From: Ignavibacteriales bacterium
GTDB lineage: Bacteria > Bacteroidota > Ignavibacteria > Ignavibacteriales > Ignavibacteriaceae
Length of the DNA: 63,040 nt
Assembly (NCBI GenBank): GCA_020061465.1
Contig: JAGUYG010000012.1
Coordinates: forward strand, 1-63,040
Direction of reading: 5' to 3'
Of this stretch, positions 17,206 through 23,672 are shown piece after piece. The notes beneath the pieces were generated by a model. The model was not told the origin of the DNA. It saw only the letters and a list, made by a program, of their open reading frames with translations, and made no database searches. A program made the translations under genes and the position numbers. The first letter of the stretch is position 1. Each line of letters begins with the position of its first letter.

Positions 17206-17592
17206 TTCTGACTTATTTAATCGTGCTTTACAGATAAGTCTGATAATTTTTCCGGCGAGCGTATCTTGTGAGTGGAATTATTTAATGCATGATTACATCT
17301 GCTGCAGAAATAGATGTATCTTAAAATTTGATGAGATGAAAGTGTGCATAACCAAACGGAATTAAGTAAGAATGAGCAATGAGGGCATCTCGCTTTTATC
17401 TGAACTCTTTCAAGTAGCTTGTGCATTTTGAATAATTGGATTGTTTAATGCTTTAGACTATCATCTTCCTTATTTGGTTGCGTTTGGCGGATTAGATTAA
17501 AAGATATTTTTCCTGTCCTTTATTTAAATATTTATTTTTTTTACTTTTGAAGTGTAATAAAAATGTTCTTAAAACAATTTGTTTAACCGTAA
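17206..17592. other. Intergenic DNA upstream of the riboswitch
   Basis: About 390 bases separate the foldback element from the riboswitch. Apart from the doubtful small frame at 17217-17426 on the minus strand, it appears to be ordinary AT-rich DNA. The thiamine-operon promoter should lie here; TTGAAG near 17547 with TAAAAC 17 bases later is a weak candidate. Confidence 0.4.
17217..17426 (-). CDS. Possible small C4 zinc-ribbon protein (doubtful)
   Basis: A 69-codon frame with two CxxC pairs (CPHC near residue 14 and CSRC near 41), a spacing that could hold one zinc ion. There is no ribosome site before the ATG and no recognisable family. It lies between a foldback repeat and the riboswitch, so it may be a fragment of a mobile-element protein or chance. 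I include it only because the paired CxxC motifs are uncommon in random translations. Confidence 0.2.
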   Translation of the reverse strand: MHKLLERVQIKARCPHCSFLLNSVWLCTLSSHQILRYIYFCSRCNHALNNSTHKIRSPEKLSDLSVKHD

Positions 17593-17681
17593 GCCGTTAG
17601 GGGTGTTGTTCCGTTTGTGCGGGATAGCTGAGATCAAACCCTTTAACCTGATCTGGATAATACCAGCGTAGGAAAACGGGC
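17593..17681 (+). promoter_or_regulatory. TPP riboswitch (THI element)
   Basis: The conserved aptamer words are present in order: AGGGGTGTT (17599-17607), GCTGAGATCAAACCCTTTAA (17627-17646), then CCTGATCTGGATAATACCAG and CGTAGGAA. The outer P1 stem pairs GCCGTT (17593-17598) with AACGGGC (17675-17681). The 3' P1 strand is also the 5' half of an antiterminator (17673-17686 with 17699-17710), so ligand binding should free the terminator at 17703-17727. It lies upstream of a TonB receptor, thiamine pyrophosphokinase and a symporter. Confidence 0.95.
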
Positions 17682-17702
17682 TAAAAGAATAATTGAGATT
17701 TT

Positions 17703-17727
17703 AGCCGTTTCTTCAACGGCTTTTTTT
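17703..17727 (+). terminator. Riboswitch-controlled intrinsic terminator
   Basis: AGCCGTT (17703-17709) pairs with AACGGCT (17715-17721), with a TCTTC loop and seven T. The 5' arm alternatively pairs with 17673-17686. It ends 14 bases before the receptor's start codon. Confidence 0.9.
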
Positions 17728-17741
17728 ATTTGGAGGTTGCT

Positions 17742-20210
17742 ATGAAAAACTTGATTATTCTTTTTTTGCTTTCAAATACTCTCTCATTTGCACAACAAGT
17801 TGAAATTAGCGGTAAAATAATAGATGCCGATTCAAAACAGCCGCTCCCAAAAGCGAATATTTACTTGGAATCTAATCGGGAAATAGGTACCGCTTCAGAT
17901 GAAAGAGGGGAATTTAAGATTGAGTTTCGTTTAATTAAACCTGATAATATTGTTATCAGTTATGTTGGCTACCAAGCCAAAAGGTATCCTGTTACACCGG
18001 CTTTAACCGGGGAGATTCTTGTTGAACTTGAATCGCAAATTATTCCCTCACAATCGGTGCTTGTTACCGGAAGCATCGGTAAAGAAGGAATTACACCCAT
18101 CGCTTTCGATAAAATTAAGAGAAGCCGGATTGAGGAAACATATATCGTTCAAGATATTCCCGAGTTCGTTTCTTCATTGCCTTCAACGATGTTCTATTCC
18201 GAAAACGGAAACGGAATAGGATATAATTATTTAAGTATACGAGGATTCGACCAGCGCCGGATTTCTGTTTCAATCAACGGTGTACCCCAAAATGATCCTG
18301 AAGACCACAATGTTTATTGGTTAGATTTTCCGGACTTGCTGGCAAGCACCGAAATAATTCAGGTACAAAGGGGTGCAGGTTCCGGTGTTTTTGGCTATCC
18401 CGCAATAGGCGGTTCAATTAATATCATTACTTCAGCGTTCTCCAATAAACCGGGTGTCAATCTTTCCGCTTCATTAGGAAGCTTTAACACGAGAAAATAC
18501 AGTGCTTCTTTTTCGAGCGGTTTGTTTGACGATAAATACTCCGTCTATGCTAAATTTTCTCAAATCCTTTCCGGCGGTTATAGAAACCATTCCTGGGTGA
18601 AGTTTAATTCTTATCATCTATCATTTGTTAGGTTCGATGATAATTTAACTACACAGTTAAATTTATACGGAGGACCCATTGAAGACGGTCTTGCTTATAT
18701 GGGAATTCCAAAAAAGGATATTAAGGATAAAACTTTACGTAAAGGAAATTATTCCTATTGGTATACCGACAGTAAAGGTATAACACATTATTATCCCAGA
18801 AGACCAACCGAAATAGAAAATTTTTCGCAGCCGCATTATGAATTGATGAATGAAATTCAATTCAACAACAGGTTAACGCTTAATTCAAATCTATTTTTAG
18901 TAATCGGCAAAGGATTTTTTGATTATGACGGTTCCTGGGCGGACAGTACATATTTACGCCTAACTTCGGAATACGGATTCACACCCGCTGGTAATCCGCA
19001 AAATGTTTTAATAAGAGCGCAGGTAGAAAATTTCCAATATGGTTGGATACCGCGCATCATTTGGAGTCATGAAAATGGTAATCTTATAATCGGCGGTGAA
19101 TTCAGAAAACATACTTCCGAACATTGGGGCAGCATAAACTACGGCGAAAATCTTCCGGCAGGATTAACTAAAGACTATCGCTATTATTTTTACAACGGCG
19201 GTAAAGATATTTTTAATATCTTCATTCATGAATCTTATAATCTAAGCGATAAAATTAATCTCTTAGGCGAATTTCAGTTAGCCTATCATAAATATCGTAT
19301 ATATAATGAAAGGTTTGCCAGAAATGATTTTTCAATAAGTAATTTGTTTTTAAACCCGAGATTAGGAATAAATTATAAATTAAGCAGCAAACAAAATATT
19401 TACTTCTCATTTGCAGGCGTAACACGCGAACCAAGACTAAAAAATTATTACGATGCCGGCGAATCAAGCGGGGGCGCCGTTCCTCAGTTTGAAGTAAAAG
19501 CTAATGGCAATTATGATTTCAATAAACCGTTGGTTGAACCGGAAACTATGAATGACTTTGAATTGGGAACTGCAATTCATTCGGCTGATTATTCTTTATC
19601 TATTAATCTTTTTTACATGTTGTTCAATAACGAAATAGTAAAGAAGGGAAAGATTGATAGATTCGGACAACCGGTTACAGGTAATGTAGATAAAACTACA
19701 CATCAAGGAATTGAACTATCAGGTATTTTGAGACTGCTAAACAACCTCGAGATTTTTGCAAATGCCACATACAGCAAAAACATCATTGATAGAGGAAGAT
19801 ATTACATCGATGCAAATTCGTCCATCGAACTAAACGGCAACAGGATTAGCGGTTTCCCGGATTTTATGGCTAATTTTGGCGTAACATACCGCACGGAAGG
19901 TTTGTTTATTAAACTTAGCGGAAGATATCTTGGTGAATTTTATTCGGATAATTTCGATAACAAACTGAATGATTACTTAACGCTTTTCCCGAAATTAGTC
20001 GGTTACCGGGATAACAAGAATGAATCTTACTTTACTGCCGATGCAATGCTGAGCTATCAATTTAAATTGTTTGAAGCACTAACTCCGACAAAAGTGTTTT
20101 GCCAGGTTAACAATTTATTCAACAATCTCTATTCGGCTTATGTAATTGGGGGCGAGTTCTTTCCCGCTGCCGAAAGGAATTTCATTGCGGGAATAGAAAT
20201 TGGATTGTAA
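17742..20210 (+). CDS. TonB-dependent outer-membrane receptor, probable thiamine receptor
   Basis: An 822-residue receptor with a signal peptide (NLIILFLLSNTLSFAQ), a carboxypeptidase-regulatory-like domain (about 20-105, SGKIIDADSKQPLPKANIYL), a plug domain (about 115-235, with LSIRGFDQRR and GYPAIGGSINIIT) and a 22-strand-type barrel to the C-terminus. The ATG at 17742 is preferred over the in-frame TTG at 17730, because GGAGG lies six bases before it. Direct control by a TPP riboswitch and the downstream thiamine pyrophosphokinase point to uptake of thiamine or a derivative across the outer membrane. Known Bacteroidetes thiamine operons contain a comparable receptor (OMR1). Ligand identity is inferred from regulation. 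Confidence 0.92.
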   Translation: MKNLIILFLLSNTLSFAQQVEISGKIIDADSKQPLPKANIYLESNREIGTASDERGEFKIEFRLIKPDNIVISYVGYQAKRYPVTPALTGEILVELESQIIPSQSVLVTGSIGKEGITPIAFDKIKRSRIEETYIVQDIPEFVSSLPSTMFYSENGNGIGYNYLSIRGFDQRRISVSINGVPQNDPEDHNVYWLDFPDLLASTEIIQVQRGAGSGVFGYPAIGGSINIITSAFSNKPGVNLSASLGSFNTRKYSASFSSGLFDDKYSVYAKFSQILSGGYRNHSWVKFNSYHLSFVRFDDNLTTQLNLYGGPIEDGLAYMGIPKKDIKDKTLRKGNYSYWYTDSKGITHYYPRRPTEIENFSQPHYELMNEIQFNNRLTLNSNLFLVIGKGFFDYDGSWADSTYLRLTSEYGFTPAGNPQNVLIRAQVENFQYGWIPRIIWSHENGNLIIGGEFRKHTSEHWGSINYGENLPAGLTKDYRYYFYNGGKDIFNIFIHESYNLSDKINLLGEFQLAYHKYRIYNERFARNDFSISNLFLNPRLGINYKLSSKQNIYFSFAGVTREPRLKNYYDAGESSGGAVPQFEVKANGNYDFNKPLVEPETMNDFELGTAIHSADYSLSINLFYMLFNNEIVKKGKIDRFGQPVTGNVDKTTHQGIELSGILRLLNNLEIFANATYSKNIIDRGRYYIDANSSIELNGNRISGFPDFMANFGVTYRTEGLFIKLSGRYLGEFYSDNFDNKLNDYLTLFPKLVGYRDNKNESYFTADAMLSYQFKLFEALTPTKVFCQVNNLFNNLYSAYVIGGEFFPAAERNFIAGIEIGL

Positions 20211-20265
20211 CCGGTTTTGATTCTTATGTTTGTAACAAAAATTGCCATCACAAATTTATTCTGCA

Positions 20266-20314
20266 GAGATGACATCTTTTGAATCGCTAAACCACACCGA
20301 AAAGATGTCATCTC
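20266..20314. repeat. GAGATGACATCTTTT hairpin repeat
   Basis: Perfect 15-base arms GAGATGACATCTTTT (20266-20280) and the complement (20300-20314) enclose a 19-base loop. The same arms occur inside MITE copy 1 (4433-4447 and 4515-4529), and the left arm again at the right window edge. There is no T-run after it, so it is not a standard terminator. Confidence 0.75.
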
Positions 20315-20524
20315 CTTTCAAATTTATTGTTCATGTAAGCTTCTACCGTTTCGGCAAGTCTTGAATTTTGAATCCTCTTGTTGGATTGATAAATTTTTTA
20401 CAACTCACTTAATGCCGGATATCTGTTTTTTAAATAATAGGGCTTCACAAAACTGAAGAAGCGGGATAGAAATTCGGTAGTAAGGATTTGATATAATTGT
20501 TGAAATTATGAAGAATTATAAAAT

Positions 20525-20669
20525 AATAAGGTAATAAGGTTCGGTTCTATGGGGTTAGTTAGAGTTACTAAGGTTTAGATGAAAAAGATAAGGTTCTAAA
20601 AACCTTATTTGTGAGTTTAACCTTAGTAACAAATCAAATCCAAACCTCTCTAAACCTTATTACCTTATT
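20525..20669. repeat. Three-tier nested foldback
   Basis: Three concentric perfect inverted repeats share the motif AAGGTT/AACCTT: 17 bases (20525-20541 with 20653-20669), 12 bases (20564-20575 with 20619-20630) and 8 bases (20588-20595 with 20601-20608). Overall length is 145 bases. It could fold into one long RNA hairpin between two operon genes or extrude as a cruciform. Confidence 0.7.
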
Positions 20670-20727
20670 CATAACCTCAAAAATAGTTTTGTGAAGGGCA
20701 CTTAAATAATTTATCGGAGAATAAATA

Positions 20728-21381
20728 TTGAAGAAATGTCTTATCCTCGCTAACGGAAAACCGCCGGGAAAAAGTGTAATAAACTTTTTAAAAAATAATG
20801 GATATAGATATTTAATTTGTGCAGACGGCGGAGCTGACTATGCAAGAAAATTAGGCATCATGCCTGATTTGATTGCGGGCGACCTTGACTCAATTACAAA
20901 GGAGAATAAAAAATTCTTTGGAAGCAAGACTAAAATTTTAAAACTTTCAGGGCAAAACGATACCGACGTAGAAAAGTGTATTAAGTTAGCCGTTAAAAAA
21001 GGATTCAAGGAAGCGATGCTCCTGGGTGTAACCGGAAACAGACTCGATCACACTATCTGCAATTTGGGAATTGTGCTTAAATTTTATTCACAGATAAAAT
21101 TAAAAATAATCGCTGAGCATTCTTTACTAATGCCGTGCTCTGGTAAAGTAACACTTAAGACAATCCCCGGTGAAACCATATCGTTATTCGGATTTAACCG
21201 CAGGACTAAAATAACTTCCTCCGGTTTGAAATATCAGCTGAATAACTCGTCTCTTCCGTTTGGTGAAAAAGAAAGTACCAGTAATCTAGCCCATAGAGAA
21301 ATAGTTAATCTTGATATAAAAGGCGGTGTAATTTTTGTGATTCGTGATTTTGATGTGGTGAGCCGCAATGGTCTCCTTTAG
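20728..21381 (+). CDS. thiN: Thiamine pyrophosphokinase
   Basis: Transfers pyrophosphate from ATP to thiamine, giving TPP directly from salvaged vitamin. The 217-residue protein has the family landmarks: ICADGGADYARKLG and PDLIAGDLDSI (metal and ATP site), ILKLSGQNDTDVEKCI, and GVTGNRLDHTICNL. The start is TTG at 20728 with CGGAGA eight bases upstream. It overlaps the symporter gene by 14 bases, so the two are surely cotranscribed. Together with the TPP riboswitch and TonB receptor upstream it defines a thiamine salvage locus; no thiamine biosynthesis genes are seen in the window. Confidence 0.93.
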   Translation: MKKCLILANGKPPGKSVINFLKNNGYRYLICADGGADYARKLGIMPDLIAGDLDSITKENKKFFGSKTKILKLSGQNDTDVEKCIKLAVKKGFKEAMLLGVTGNRLDHTICNLGIVLKFYSQIKLKIIAEHSLLMPCSGKVTLKTIPGETISLFGFNRRTKITSSGLKYQLNNSSLPFGEKESTSNLAHREIVNLDIKGGVIFVIRDFDVVSRNGLL

Positions 21382-22786
21382 TACGATAGATATACTTATT
21401 GTCCTGCTATTTTTTTCCGCTTTGCTCTTCATCGGATTTCTTGCCGGAAGAAAACAAGGAAAAACGGCAGATGATTATTTGCTTTCCGGAAGGCAAGTTG
21501 GATTATTCGTATTTGTATTAACTAATGTTTCTACATGGTACGGCGGAATTTTGGGAGTAGGGGAGTTTACTTACCGTTACGGTTTGTTGAGCTGGTTCAC
21601 TCAAGGTTTGCCTTATTACTTCTTCGCATTTTTATTCGCTTACTTTTTTGCCGGGAAAATCCGGAAGGCGTCACTATTTACTATTCCCGATAAGATAGAA
21701 GAAAAATTCGGGAGAACCGCTTCTTTACTTTCTGCTGTAATTGTTTTTATTCTTGTTTCACCCGCGCCTTATCTTTTAATGGCAGCAAATCTAATTGCAA
21801 TCTTTTTCGGAATTCCAATAATTCCTTCATTAATTGCCGCACTGATTTTATCCTTTGCTTATTTATTTAAAGGCGGATATCGTGCCGATCTTTACACCGA
21901 TGTGTTTCAATTCTTTGTAATGTTTGCAGGTTTCATTTTGATTTTTATTATTGCTTACATCACCTTTGGCGGAATTGAATTTCTCTCAAATCATCTACCT
22001 GAAGAACATCTAAAAATAACCGGCGGTGCGTCTCCGACTTTTATCATAATATGGTTTTTTATTGCTATGTGGACTTTTGCCGATCCCGGTTTTCATCAAC
22101 GATGTTATGCAGCAAAAAACGAACAGACGGCTAAAAAGGGTATATTAATTTCAATTATTTTCTGGGCATTTTTTGATTTTCTTACAACTTCCACCGGATT
22201 ATATGCCAGAGCTTTGATACCGGACATCTCCCAGCCGGTTAATGCATTTCCTCTTCTTGCTGAAAAAATTTTATCTCCGGGGTTAAAGGGGATTTTTTTT
22301 GCAGCATTGTTTGCAACTATATTATCCACACTCAACAGTTTCTTATTCCTCAGCGCTACTACAATAGCGAGAGATTTTATTTTCAGATTGAGGAAAGAAA
22401 AAGACGAGCGCAGATTAAAGCCATATACTATAGGCGGATTGGCACTTTCCGGTTTACTTTCGATTTTACTTGCATATTATATTCCCTCAGTGATAGAGTT
22501 ATGGTATACTTTAGGTTCTATTTGTATTCCCGCAGTTATTTTACCGGTTATCGGTTCATATTATGAAAAATTTAAGATTGCTAAAAAGCTTGTAATAATC
22601 CAAATGATAACGGCAATTACCGTAAGCACAGGATGGTATGTAGCGAAGAAAATATTTTTGATGACGGGTTTTTGGTTAGAGATTGAACCGATGATTGCGG
22701 GTTTATCGGCAGCGTTTCTTATTCATCTTTTGGGATTGACTCATTGCCGCCGGGAGATTTTTTCTTTTTTATCAATGAAAGAATAA
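21368..22786 (+). CDS. SSS-family sodium:solute symporter, candidate thiamine transporter
   Basis: A 472-residue inner-membrane protein with about 13 hydrophobic segments and sodium-solute-symporter features: ADDYLLSGRQVG near the N-terminus, SLIAALILSFAYLFKGGYRA, FADPGFHQRCYAA, and the sodium-site helix STLNSFLFLSATTIARDF. It starts inside thiN (14-base overlap), so translation is coupled. In Bacteroidetes thiamine operons this position is usually held by PnuT; an SSS carrier has been proposed as a thiamine transporter (ThiV) in other lineages. A role in thiamine or HMP/thiazole uptake is inferred from operon and riboswitch control, not from sequence motifs. Its 3' end overlaps convergent terC by 68 bases. 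Confidence 0.88.
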   Translation: MVSFSTIDILIVLLFFSALLFIGFLAGRKQGKTADDYLLSGRQVGLFVFVLTNVSTWYGGILGVGEFTYRYGLLSWFTQGLPYYFFAFLFAYFFAGKIRKASLFTIPDKIEEKFGRTASLLSAVIVFILVSPAPYLLMAANLIAIFFGIPIIPSLIAALILSFAYLFKGGYRADLYTDVFQFFVMFAGFILIFIIAYITFGGIEFLSNHLPEEHLKITGGASPTFIIIWFFIAMWTFADPGFHQRCYAAKNEQTAKKGILISIIFWAFFDFLTTSTGLYARALIPDISQPVNAFPLLAEKILSPGLKGIFFAALFATILSTLNSFLFLSATTIARDFIFRLRKEKDERRLKPYTIGGLALSGLLSILLAYYIPSVIELWYTLGSICIPAVILPVIGSYYEKFKIAKKLVIIQMITAITVSTGWYVAKKIFLMTGFWLEIEPMIAGLSAAFLIHLLGLTHCRREIFSFLSMKE

Positions 22787-23672
22787 CCGACCCTCCCAGG
22801 AAAAATAAAATCACCGTTAGCGAAACCACAGTAGGAATTTGATACCAATCGGAAATAAGCATCTTTATTCCAACATAGAAAAGAATGATTGCTACACCGT
22901 ATTTCAGATAAACAAAAAGATCAACAATTCCCGCAAGTGCAAAATACAATGCGCGCAAACCGAGAATTGCAAAAACGTTCGAAGAAATAATTATGAACTC
23001 GTCCTTTGTGATAGCAATTATTGCCGGGATTGAATCAACCGCAAAAACAATGTCGGCTGATTCTATCAGTAATAAAGTAACAAAAAGTGTAGTTGCGTAA
23101 ATCTTTCCGTTTTGTTTGATAAAAAATTTATTGCCGTGGTACCCTGGTATAAAATTGATGTACTTTGACATCAACTTTACTAGAAAATTATCTTCTACCT
23201 TAATTTTATGTTCACCGCCGAAAGCCATTTTATAAGCGGCATAAAGAAGAATGAATCCGAAGACATAAATAATAGGATGGAAGAGTTTGAGCAGGCCGAC
23301 GCCTGCAAGTATAAAAATTATTCTTAAGATGATGGCGCTTATTATACCCCATTTAAGCACGTGAGGCTGTGCAATTGCCGGTACGCTCATAACATTGAAT
23401 ATCATCAAGAAAACAAAGAGATTGTCAACAGACAATGATTTTTCAATAATATAGCCGGTTAGAAATTCAATTGCTTTTACATGTCCGTCTTCAAGATAGA
23501 AGTACAGCCCCGCATTAAAAATAAGAGCGGTAATTATCCAAACACCGCTCCACATTAAACTGGCCTTTAACGTTATTTTACCGCGTCTATGGTCTGTTAC
23601 ATATAAATCGATAAAGAATAAAATCGAGACGACGACCCAAAAAATTATCCAGAATATAAATTCGTTGAACAA
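22719..23672 (-). CDS. TerC/Alx-family membrane protein
   Basis: A 317-residue polytopic protein. It shows the TerC signature in two halves: EKSLSVDNLFVFLMIFN and ESADIVFAVDSIPAI, each with an acidic residue in a membrane helix, plus FAILGLRALYFAL. Family members export manganese (Alx/YceF, MeeF) or assist metalation of secreted proteins; tellurite resistance is an older label. The start is TTG at 23672 with AGGA eight bases upstream, and only 12 bases separate it from the arginine decarboxylase gene. The 3' end overlaps the convergent symporter gene by 68 bases. The metal specificity is not visible. Confidence 0.92.
   Translation of the reverse strand: MFNEFIFWIIFWVVVSILFFIDLYVTDHRRGKITLKASLMWSGVWIITALIFNAGLYFYLEDGHVKAIEFLTGYIIEKSLSVDNLFVFLMIFNVMSVPAIAQPHVLKWGIISAIILRIIFILAGVGLLKLFHPIIYVFGFILLYAAYKMAFGGEHKIKVEDNFLVKLMSKYINFIPGYHGNKFFIKQNGKIYATTLFVTLLLIESADIVFAVDSIPAIIAITKDEFIIISSNVFAILGLRALYFALAGIVDLFVYLKYGVAIILFYVGIKMLISDWYQIPTVVSLTVILFFLGGSVILSLIKKKKSPGGNESIPKDE

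Follow-up and report, generated by a model that had tools for sequence, protein, structure and literature searches.

A sodium:solute symporter encoded behind thiN as a candidate inner-membrane thiamine importer in Ignavibacteria-like bacteria

Here we examine a gene for a sodium:solute symporter (SSS) family protein that stands in a thiamine locus of the Ignavibacteriales bacterium assembly GCA_020061465.1 (contig JAGUYG010000012.1, forward strand). The window, i.e., the whole stretch of 63,040 nucleotides that was analyzed, lies in contig C105 of a 4.2-Mb genome, here called G000, that is rated 100% complete with 0.79% contamination. Judging from its genomic surroundings and from the gene content of its host, the symporter very probably imports thiamine across the inner membrane of a thiamine-auxotrophic bacterium. 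The initial annotation had proposed thiamine as the cargo from the position and regulation of the gene. That proposal gains support from linkage to thiN, from the absence of ThiC and ThiE matches, and from the absence of a PnuC/PnuT-family or ThiT match, and it can probably be sharpened to intact thiamine.

A thiamine locus that ends in a symporter

The locus reads, 5' to 3' on the + strand, as a thiamine pyrophosphate (TPP) riboswitch, a TonB receptor, thiN, and the SSS symporter, all four in one block. Its features are as follows.

17589..17691, + strand: TPP riboswitch aptamer (RF00059, 70.5 bits)
17703..17721, + strand: riboswitch terminator hairpin and T-run (pattern scan, RNA folds); the 5' arm pairs alternatively with the 3' strand of aptamer helix P1 (antiterminator)
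17742..20210, + strand: TonB-dependent outer-membrane receptor, candidate outer-membrane thiamine receptor, 822 amino acids (aa) (PF00593, PF07715, PF13715)
20211..20727, no strand: 517-base spacer with several inverted repeats (sequence and two close relatives)
20728..21381, + strand: thiN, thiamine diphosphokinase, TTG start, 217 aa (TIGR01378, 154.4 bits)
21368..22786, + strand: SSS-family sodium:solute symporter, proposed inner-membrane thiamine importer, 472 aa (PF00474, 127.1 bits; thiN linkage; Na2 site S320/T321; candidate site residues W57, Y83, Y84, D239, R245, W379)

The gene order and the 14-base overlap of thiN and the symporter (21368-21381), first noted from the letters of the DNA, were borne out by the RF00059, PF00593/PF07715/PF13715, TIGR01378, and PF00474 matches. 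The thiN call exceeds its cut-off of 76.4 bits, and the symporter open reading frame (ORF) has no internal stops. One part of the initial annotation has to be corrected: the symporter was said to occupy the place of PnuT, in the interval between receptor and kinase. It stands behind the kinase instead, while PnuT is the gene in between in Bacteroides, as far as the operon is described in PMC5613172.

The thiN-symporter pair recurs within and beyond the class

We surveyed 197 genomes of the class, counting the symporter at E ≤ 1e-30. Linkage was read from the 150 matches listed for each of the symporter, the riboswitch, and thiN, and counts of linkage from these are lower bounds. The symporter is present in 150 of the 197 genomes, thiN in 185, and a TPP riboswitch match in 190 (168 over the cut-off). 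In at least 112 of the 150 genomes the symporter lies in a thiamine locus; in 37 it is elsewhere or without demonstrated linkage, and the remaining one, in G144, matched weakly and comes from a genome that is 71% complete. By listed coordinates, thiN lies upstream on the same strand in at least 106 genomes, no farther than 263 bases away in 105 of them and 1204 bases away in G127, and a riboswitch is found no more than 6 kb upstream of the symporter in at least 74. Reading of individual loci adds three thiN-linked cases (G020, G107, and G094, the last with its gene split over two frames). The symporter follows the receptor in G141 and G166, two genomes that gave no thiN match, and in G134 it was counted as linked on the riboswitch alone, 3.3 kb upstream. 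The 14-base overlap of the two genes recurs in 14 further rows of the loci read, two of these rows being one contig. In G121 (family f24) the operon also holds thiM, thiE, and thiL, placed between riboswitch and receptor. An apparent ThiN-symporter fusion in G170 (L085 3145-5193, one 683-aa frame with both domains) was rejected as an assembly gap, because two N stand at the junction and the usual C-terminal residues of thiN are absent there.

The two named relatives of the symporter come from metagenome-assembled genomes labeled "Ignavibacteria bacterium" (64% identity) and "Bacteroidetes bacterium" (63%). Outside the class, a phylum-wide search returned 26 genomes that match the symporter at E ≤ 1e-45; the loci of 20 of these were read, and thiN is just upstream of the symporter in all 20. 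Whether orthologs sit mostly outside thiamine loci had been posed as a check at the outset, and they do not, given the at least 112 of 150 cases within the class and the 20 of 20 beyond it.

Two carrier families share one operon slot

The slot behind thiN is filled by a PnuC/PnuT-family gene (PF04973) in four genomes of the class. All four (G043, G115, G177, and G188) belong to family f19, with the PF04973 gene directly after thiN and no SSS match at E ≤ 1e-30, and other members of the same family (G062, G076, G096, and G162) carry receptor, thiN, and symporter. In three of the four PF04973-slot genomes the contig extends far enough to show the gene before thiN, and in each it is the receptor. 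One strand of a single G115 contig carries riboswitch, thiN, and the PF04973 gene; NCBIfam names the slot protein PnuC, and from its place we read it as PnuT. At the G043 and G177 loci a riboswitch at gathering score was not found, and weak matches exist in both genomes. Among the genomic evidence, this exchange argues most directly for one shared job of the SSS protein and the PnuC/PnuT-type carrier.

It is tempting to call every PF04973 protein in the class a PnuT. PF04973 exceeds the cut-off in 17 of the 197 genomes and, among the matches listed, adjoins thiN in four. We rejected the wider assignment: the 13 other loci have no TPP riboswitch in flanks of up to 1.5 kb. Because these loci have neither a listed adjoining thiN nor a riboswitch in the flank, the 13 proteins may be nicotinamide riboside carriers.

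Thiamine synthesis genes and other carriers

Neither ThiC (PF01964) nor the thiamine monophosphate (TMP) synthase ThiE (PF02581) was matched in G000 even at E 0.001, in searches that were positive in 13 and 11, respectively, of 14 control genomes. The synthesis search in G000 covered ThiC and ThiE; ThiM, ThiD, ThiL, and TenA were not searched genome-wide. A separate PnuT or ThiT in the same genome was a further check, and the PnuC/PnuT family (PF04973), ThiT, and ThiB were all unmatched, with CytX, YkoE, and other carriers not searched for. G000 is apparently a thiamine auxotroph. Among thiamine-related compounds, intact thiamine should be the best-fitting cargo, not the pyrimidine precursor hydroxymethylpyrimidine (HMP), since the known route cannot link HMP to thiazole without TMP synthase.

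Across the class, ThiC is not matched in 170 of the 197 genomes. By carrier and ThiC together, 147 genomes have the SSS symporter only, 25 ThiC only, 16 the PnuC family only, two SSS and ThiC, one SSS and the PnuC family, and six none of these. G065 and G129, which carry SSS together with ThiC, each have two TPP riboswitches, one of them no more than 0.8 kb upstream of thiC. Family f12 splits by genus: nine genomes (g36 and g58) have ThiC without SSS, and four (g42, g70, and g75) have SSS without ThiC. ThiE was counted in 39 genomes, one of which (G124) is a partial match. This count left out 13 genomes with weak or partial matches (best E 3.9e-9 to 9.6e-4), of which G008, G078, and G165 are over the family cut-off and 10 carry SSS; a sub-threshold PF04973 match in G135 was likewise left out.

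The six genomes in the "none" class are those of family f7 (G004, G015, G025, G035, G045, and G054), drafts of 68-94% completeness without symporter, PnuC-family, ThiC, or thiN matches. Strong ThiE matches are present in four of these genomes.

Symporter residues that align with a sodium site and with part of a choline site

PF00474 is the sole Pfam family in the symporter (127.1 bits against a curated cut-off of 22.8), and PF04973, the family of PnuT, is not matched. TIGR00813 scores 144.5 bits, under its cut-off of 184, and the best equivalog-type NCBIfam match, PanF, is far below cut-off (112.6 against 328). Among solved structures, the best match is 9rws, a CHT-type Na+-coupled choline transporter that we take to be the bacterial sfCHT (profile E 2.6e-27), and a single-sequence search agrees. 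After it rank SGLT1 and human CHT1 in the profile search and, in the single-sequence search, the multivitamin transporter SMVT. An AlphaFold model built from a 3-row alignment had a mean predicted local distance difference test score of 37.9 and is unusable as evidence on a LeuT-type fold.

We read residue correspondences by eye from the printed alignment to human CHT1 and took residue roles in CHT1 from the accounts of CHT1 and sfCHT excerpted from PMC11589582 and PMC13220886. The CHT1 Na2 serines S346/S347 align to S320/T321. In 89 thiN-linked members, position 320 is S in 87 (T or A in the others) and position 321 is T in 81 and S in 8; the Na3-type position D178 is D in 69 and N in 20. The Na2-type sodium site is therefore conserved, and Na+ coupling is likely. 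Three cage aromatics of CHT1 (W62, Y91, and W406) also align, to W57, Y83, and W379, as do Q259/R260, to Q244/R245. W57 is W in 82 and F in 7 of the 89 members, Y83 is Y in 79 and F in 10, and D239, Q244, R245, W76, Y84, and W379 are invariant. The full aromatic cage (W62, Y91, W141, W254, and W406) is not found, as W141 corresponds to S131 and W254 to D239, and the operon context differs. Across the linked members the W141 position is S, T, or N, mostly S or T, and the W254 position is D. On this putative site model, Na+ could plausibly drive the transport of a quaternary-type cation that bears a hydroxyethyl arm.

Alternative cargoes and points against thiamine

How firmly can thiamine be assigned as the cargo? 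Several observations, gathered here, weigh against it, and some of them favor other cargoes. The symporter could import HMP or the thiazole precursor rather than intact thiamine, as SAR11 ThiV may do, an SSS protein under a TPP riboswitch that is described as a likely HMP carrier in a pathway said to want only HMP synthesis (PMC11452348, as excerpted). Strong ThiE matches occur in 11 of the 150 symporter genomes and ThiC matches in 2, and thiamine is therefore not the sole possible vitamer in those genomes. Unlike SAR11 ThiV, the symporter studied here pairs with thiN, whose product has thiamine as its substrate and is the usual partner, and it does so in a genome with no ThiE-family match at E 0.001 and no ThiC match, where precursors would not be joinable by the known route. 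Precursor import is unlikely.

Slightly less probable still is the idea that the symporter moves a solute unrelated to thiamine, e.g., choline or pantothenate, and lies near thiN through operon history. Its best solved match is a choline transporter, PanF leads the equivalog-type matches, and 37 of the 150 class members (families f4, f9, f16, f21, f22, f23, f26, and f27) have no demonstrated thiamine locus. In a 117-row quick tree, all linked symporters fall in one clade (Shimodaira-Hasegawa-like approximate likelihood ratio test, SH-aLRT, 99). The outgroups, on long branches, were Escherichia coli PutP and PanF, four plasmid SSS proteins, and two G000 paralogs; three SSS rows (two duplicates and one fragment) and one of the three G000 paralogs were left out. 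Two unlinked subclades are nested inside the clade, one mostly beside fumarase (f4 and f22) and one mostly beside PgsA (f9, f16, f21, f26, and f27). Twenty of the 37 unlinked loci were read: 6 are beside fumarase, 11 beside PgsA, and 3 beside neither, and thiN is beside none. For 6 of the 17 unread relatives (G064, G077, G084, G138, G179, and G186), the position of thiN is not among the matches listed. In all 10 unlinked genomes whose riboswitch locus was read, the receptor is present there. In such genomes, either the symporter has moved or another thiamine carrier goes unrecognized, and the unlinked symporters either kept their function after moving or changed it.

D239 and R245 are missing from all 7 members of the fumarase group, and G60 and W379 from all 13 of the PgsA group. 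Seven linked control clades lose 0-4 conserved positions, comparable to the unlinked groups, and since the controls vary alike we treat pocket divergence as a hint, not as proof, of changed cargo in the unlinked relatives. The fumarase-adjoining relatives are L095, L097, L116, L118, L175, and L181, all without D239 and R245. The f4 thiamine loci L094, L096, L115, and L117 have receptor and thiN but lack a following symporter of this clade. In L099, L101, L114, L120, L122, L176, L178, and L184-L187, the relative is followed directly by a gene for a CDP-alcohol phosphatidyltransferase (PgsA-like); all of these relatives are without G60 and W379, and some have RNase HII or pyrimidine nucleoside phosphorylase upstream.

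Against an unrelated cargo stand the position of thiN just upstream in at least 109 of the 150 class genomes and in 20 of 20 loci read beyond the class, the four genomes that carry a PnuC/PnuT-family gene in the slot behind thiN, and the absence of the CHT1 cage tryptophans W141 and W254 (S/T/N and D).

Four further points count against thiamine import as proposed. Beyond the class, 17 of the 20 loci lack a TPP riboswitch at gathering score (3 have one) and a receptor like that of G000 was seen in only 3; since thiN is there in all 20, the thiN-symporter pair is a more conserved unit than the full locus. D239 is not specific to the clade, as an Asp of SGLT1 aligns there and an SSS protein on a Clostridioides difficile plasmid has the string D-P-x-F-x-Q-R. 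The exclusion of ThiC by the symporter (with/without ThiC, 2/148 in symporter genomes against 25/22 in the others) represents far fewer events than genomes, because the class genomes are related, and Fisher p-values ignore this kinship. Finally, an SsuA-like binding protein adjoins a fused ATP-binding cassette permease-ATPase elsewhere in G000 (L196, contig C76, 1666-4407), away from the only TPP riboswitch match of the genome.

Import of phosphorylated or degraded thiamine (TMP or TPP) is the least probable alternative: a TonB receptor could admit phosphate esters and the present data do not separate these cargoes, but the usual neighbor, ThiN, acts on unphosphorylated thiamine.

Relation to known systems

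The closest precedent in gene content is Caldithrix abyssi, a predicted thiamine auxotroph in which Cabys_3975-3977 and a TPP riboswitch make up the same four parts: riboswitch, TonB receptor, sodium-solute symporter, and thiamin pyrophosphokinase (PMC5317091, 2017). The likeness considered here is that of gene content; in the portion of that paper that treats the locus, transport is credited to the receptor, without discussion of the spread or cargo of the symporter. The second precedent is ThiV, an SSS protein under TPP riboswitches that has been listed as a vitamin B1 transporter (PMC6593275), described as PanF-like (PMC2211319), given eukaryotic kin in SSSP/SSSQ (PMC4260697), and treated as a pyrimidine/B1 carrier (PMC10881298), in the excerpts of these papers. 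Like ThiV and SSSP (Methylobacillus, SAR11, and algae), the symporter is an SSS protein, PanF-like, and associated with TPP riboswitches. Residues noted for ThiV/SSSP are Tyr78, Asp139, and Phe254 in SiaT numbering (PMC11452348). Among plasmid sequences, the matches to the symporter were SSS proteins with 24-29% identity, none of them named ThiV, and a search of viral contigs returned no match.

The third is the Bacteroides operon OMthi-pnuT-tnr3, in which PnuT lies between the receptor and a kinase-type enzyme. Like this PnuT, the symporter would serve at the inner membrane alongside a TonB thiamine receptor and a kinase-type enzyme, all behind a TPP riboswitch; it differs in being an SSS rather than a PF04973 protein and in its gene order (PMC5613172, as excerpted). 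The Caldithrix abyssi locus, together with ThiV as an SSS carrier for thiamine or HMP elsewhere, is partial prior art. In the open-licence literature searched, no paper names the symporter as the thiamine carrier of Ignavibacteria, and absence there does not equal absence in print. In anammox reactors, most of the abundant flanking populations are reported to lack critical thiamin synthesis genes (PMC7358590, in excerpt), and PMC9530715, as excerpted, concerned other phyla.

Probable riboswitch control of the operon

The riboswitch (17589-17691) is above the RF00059 gathering score of 54.3 bits and is the sole RF00059 match in the whole genome at E ≤ 0.001. Folded alone, the terminator hairpin has a free energy of -8.7 kcal/mol (z -3.16), and the stretch 17655-17733 folds with the 3' strand of aptamer helix P1 paired to the 5' arm of the hairpin. 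Terminator-like patterns are not enriched in the region (4 observed against 4.8 expected from shuffles). From folding, the two structures would resemble a transcription switch that is off with TPP. The receptor ORF was listed from a TTG at 17730 (17730-20210); we set its start at ATG 17742, which gives 822 aa, because a GGAGG precedes it and two relatives have the same length.

The 517 bases between the receptor stop and thiN look like an insertion, because the corresponding gap is 2 and 3 bases long in two close relatives. Perfect inverted repeats in this spacer have arms of 17 bases (20525-20541/20653-20669) and 15 bases (20266-20280/20300-20314). With such a spacer splitting receptor from thiN, it is probable, though not assured, that thiN and the symporter are transcribed together from the riboswitch. 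Downstream, the 3' end of the symporter gene overlaps a convergent terC-like gene (22719-23672, - strand) by 68 bases (22719-22786); in the relative L006 the two genes are 462 bases apart.

A model for thiamine uptake and its implications

In our model, low TPP would let the riboswitch antiterminator form and the operon be read, with control presumably reaching thiN and the symporter across the 517-base spacer. The TonB receptor would bring thiamine into the periplasm, and the symporter would move it into the cytoplasm with Na+, the cargo, coupling ion, and direction all being predictions. ThiN would then turn thiamine into TPP, which would both trap the vitamin and shut the operon. More speculatively, aromatic and acidic residues (W57, Y83, W379, and D239) may form a site for the cationic thiazolium similar to the one that binds choline in CHT1.

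A broader picture is possible, and we offer it tentatively, as somewhat short of an even chance when all its parts are taken together. An SSS branch apart from ThiV would be the standard inner-membrane thiamine importer of the Ignavibacteria-like class and of several other lineages of the phylum. It would be Na+-driven, would exchange with PnuT in the operon slot, and would recognize thiazolium through an altered form of the choline-transporter site, with D239 in place of a cage tryptophan.

If thiamine import by this symporter is correct, the inner-membrane step that is missing from B1 uptake in a large bacterial class, most of it uncultured, would be accounted for, and the SSS fold would have a bacterial example in which it carries intact thiamine and not a precursor. 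PnuC-type carriers probably rely on kinase trapping rather than on an ion gradient, and the occurrence of PnuT-type and SSS carriers in the same operon slot offers a paired comparison of two ways to import one vitamin. If the symporter does import thiamine, B1 exchange in the communities of such bacteria would become more predictable from genomes.

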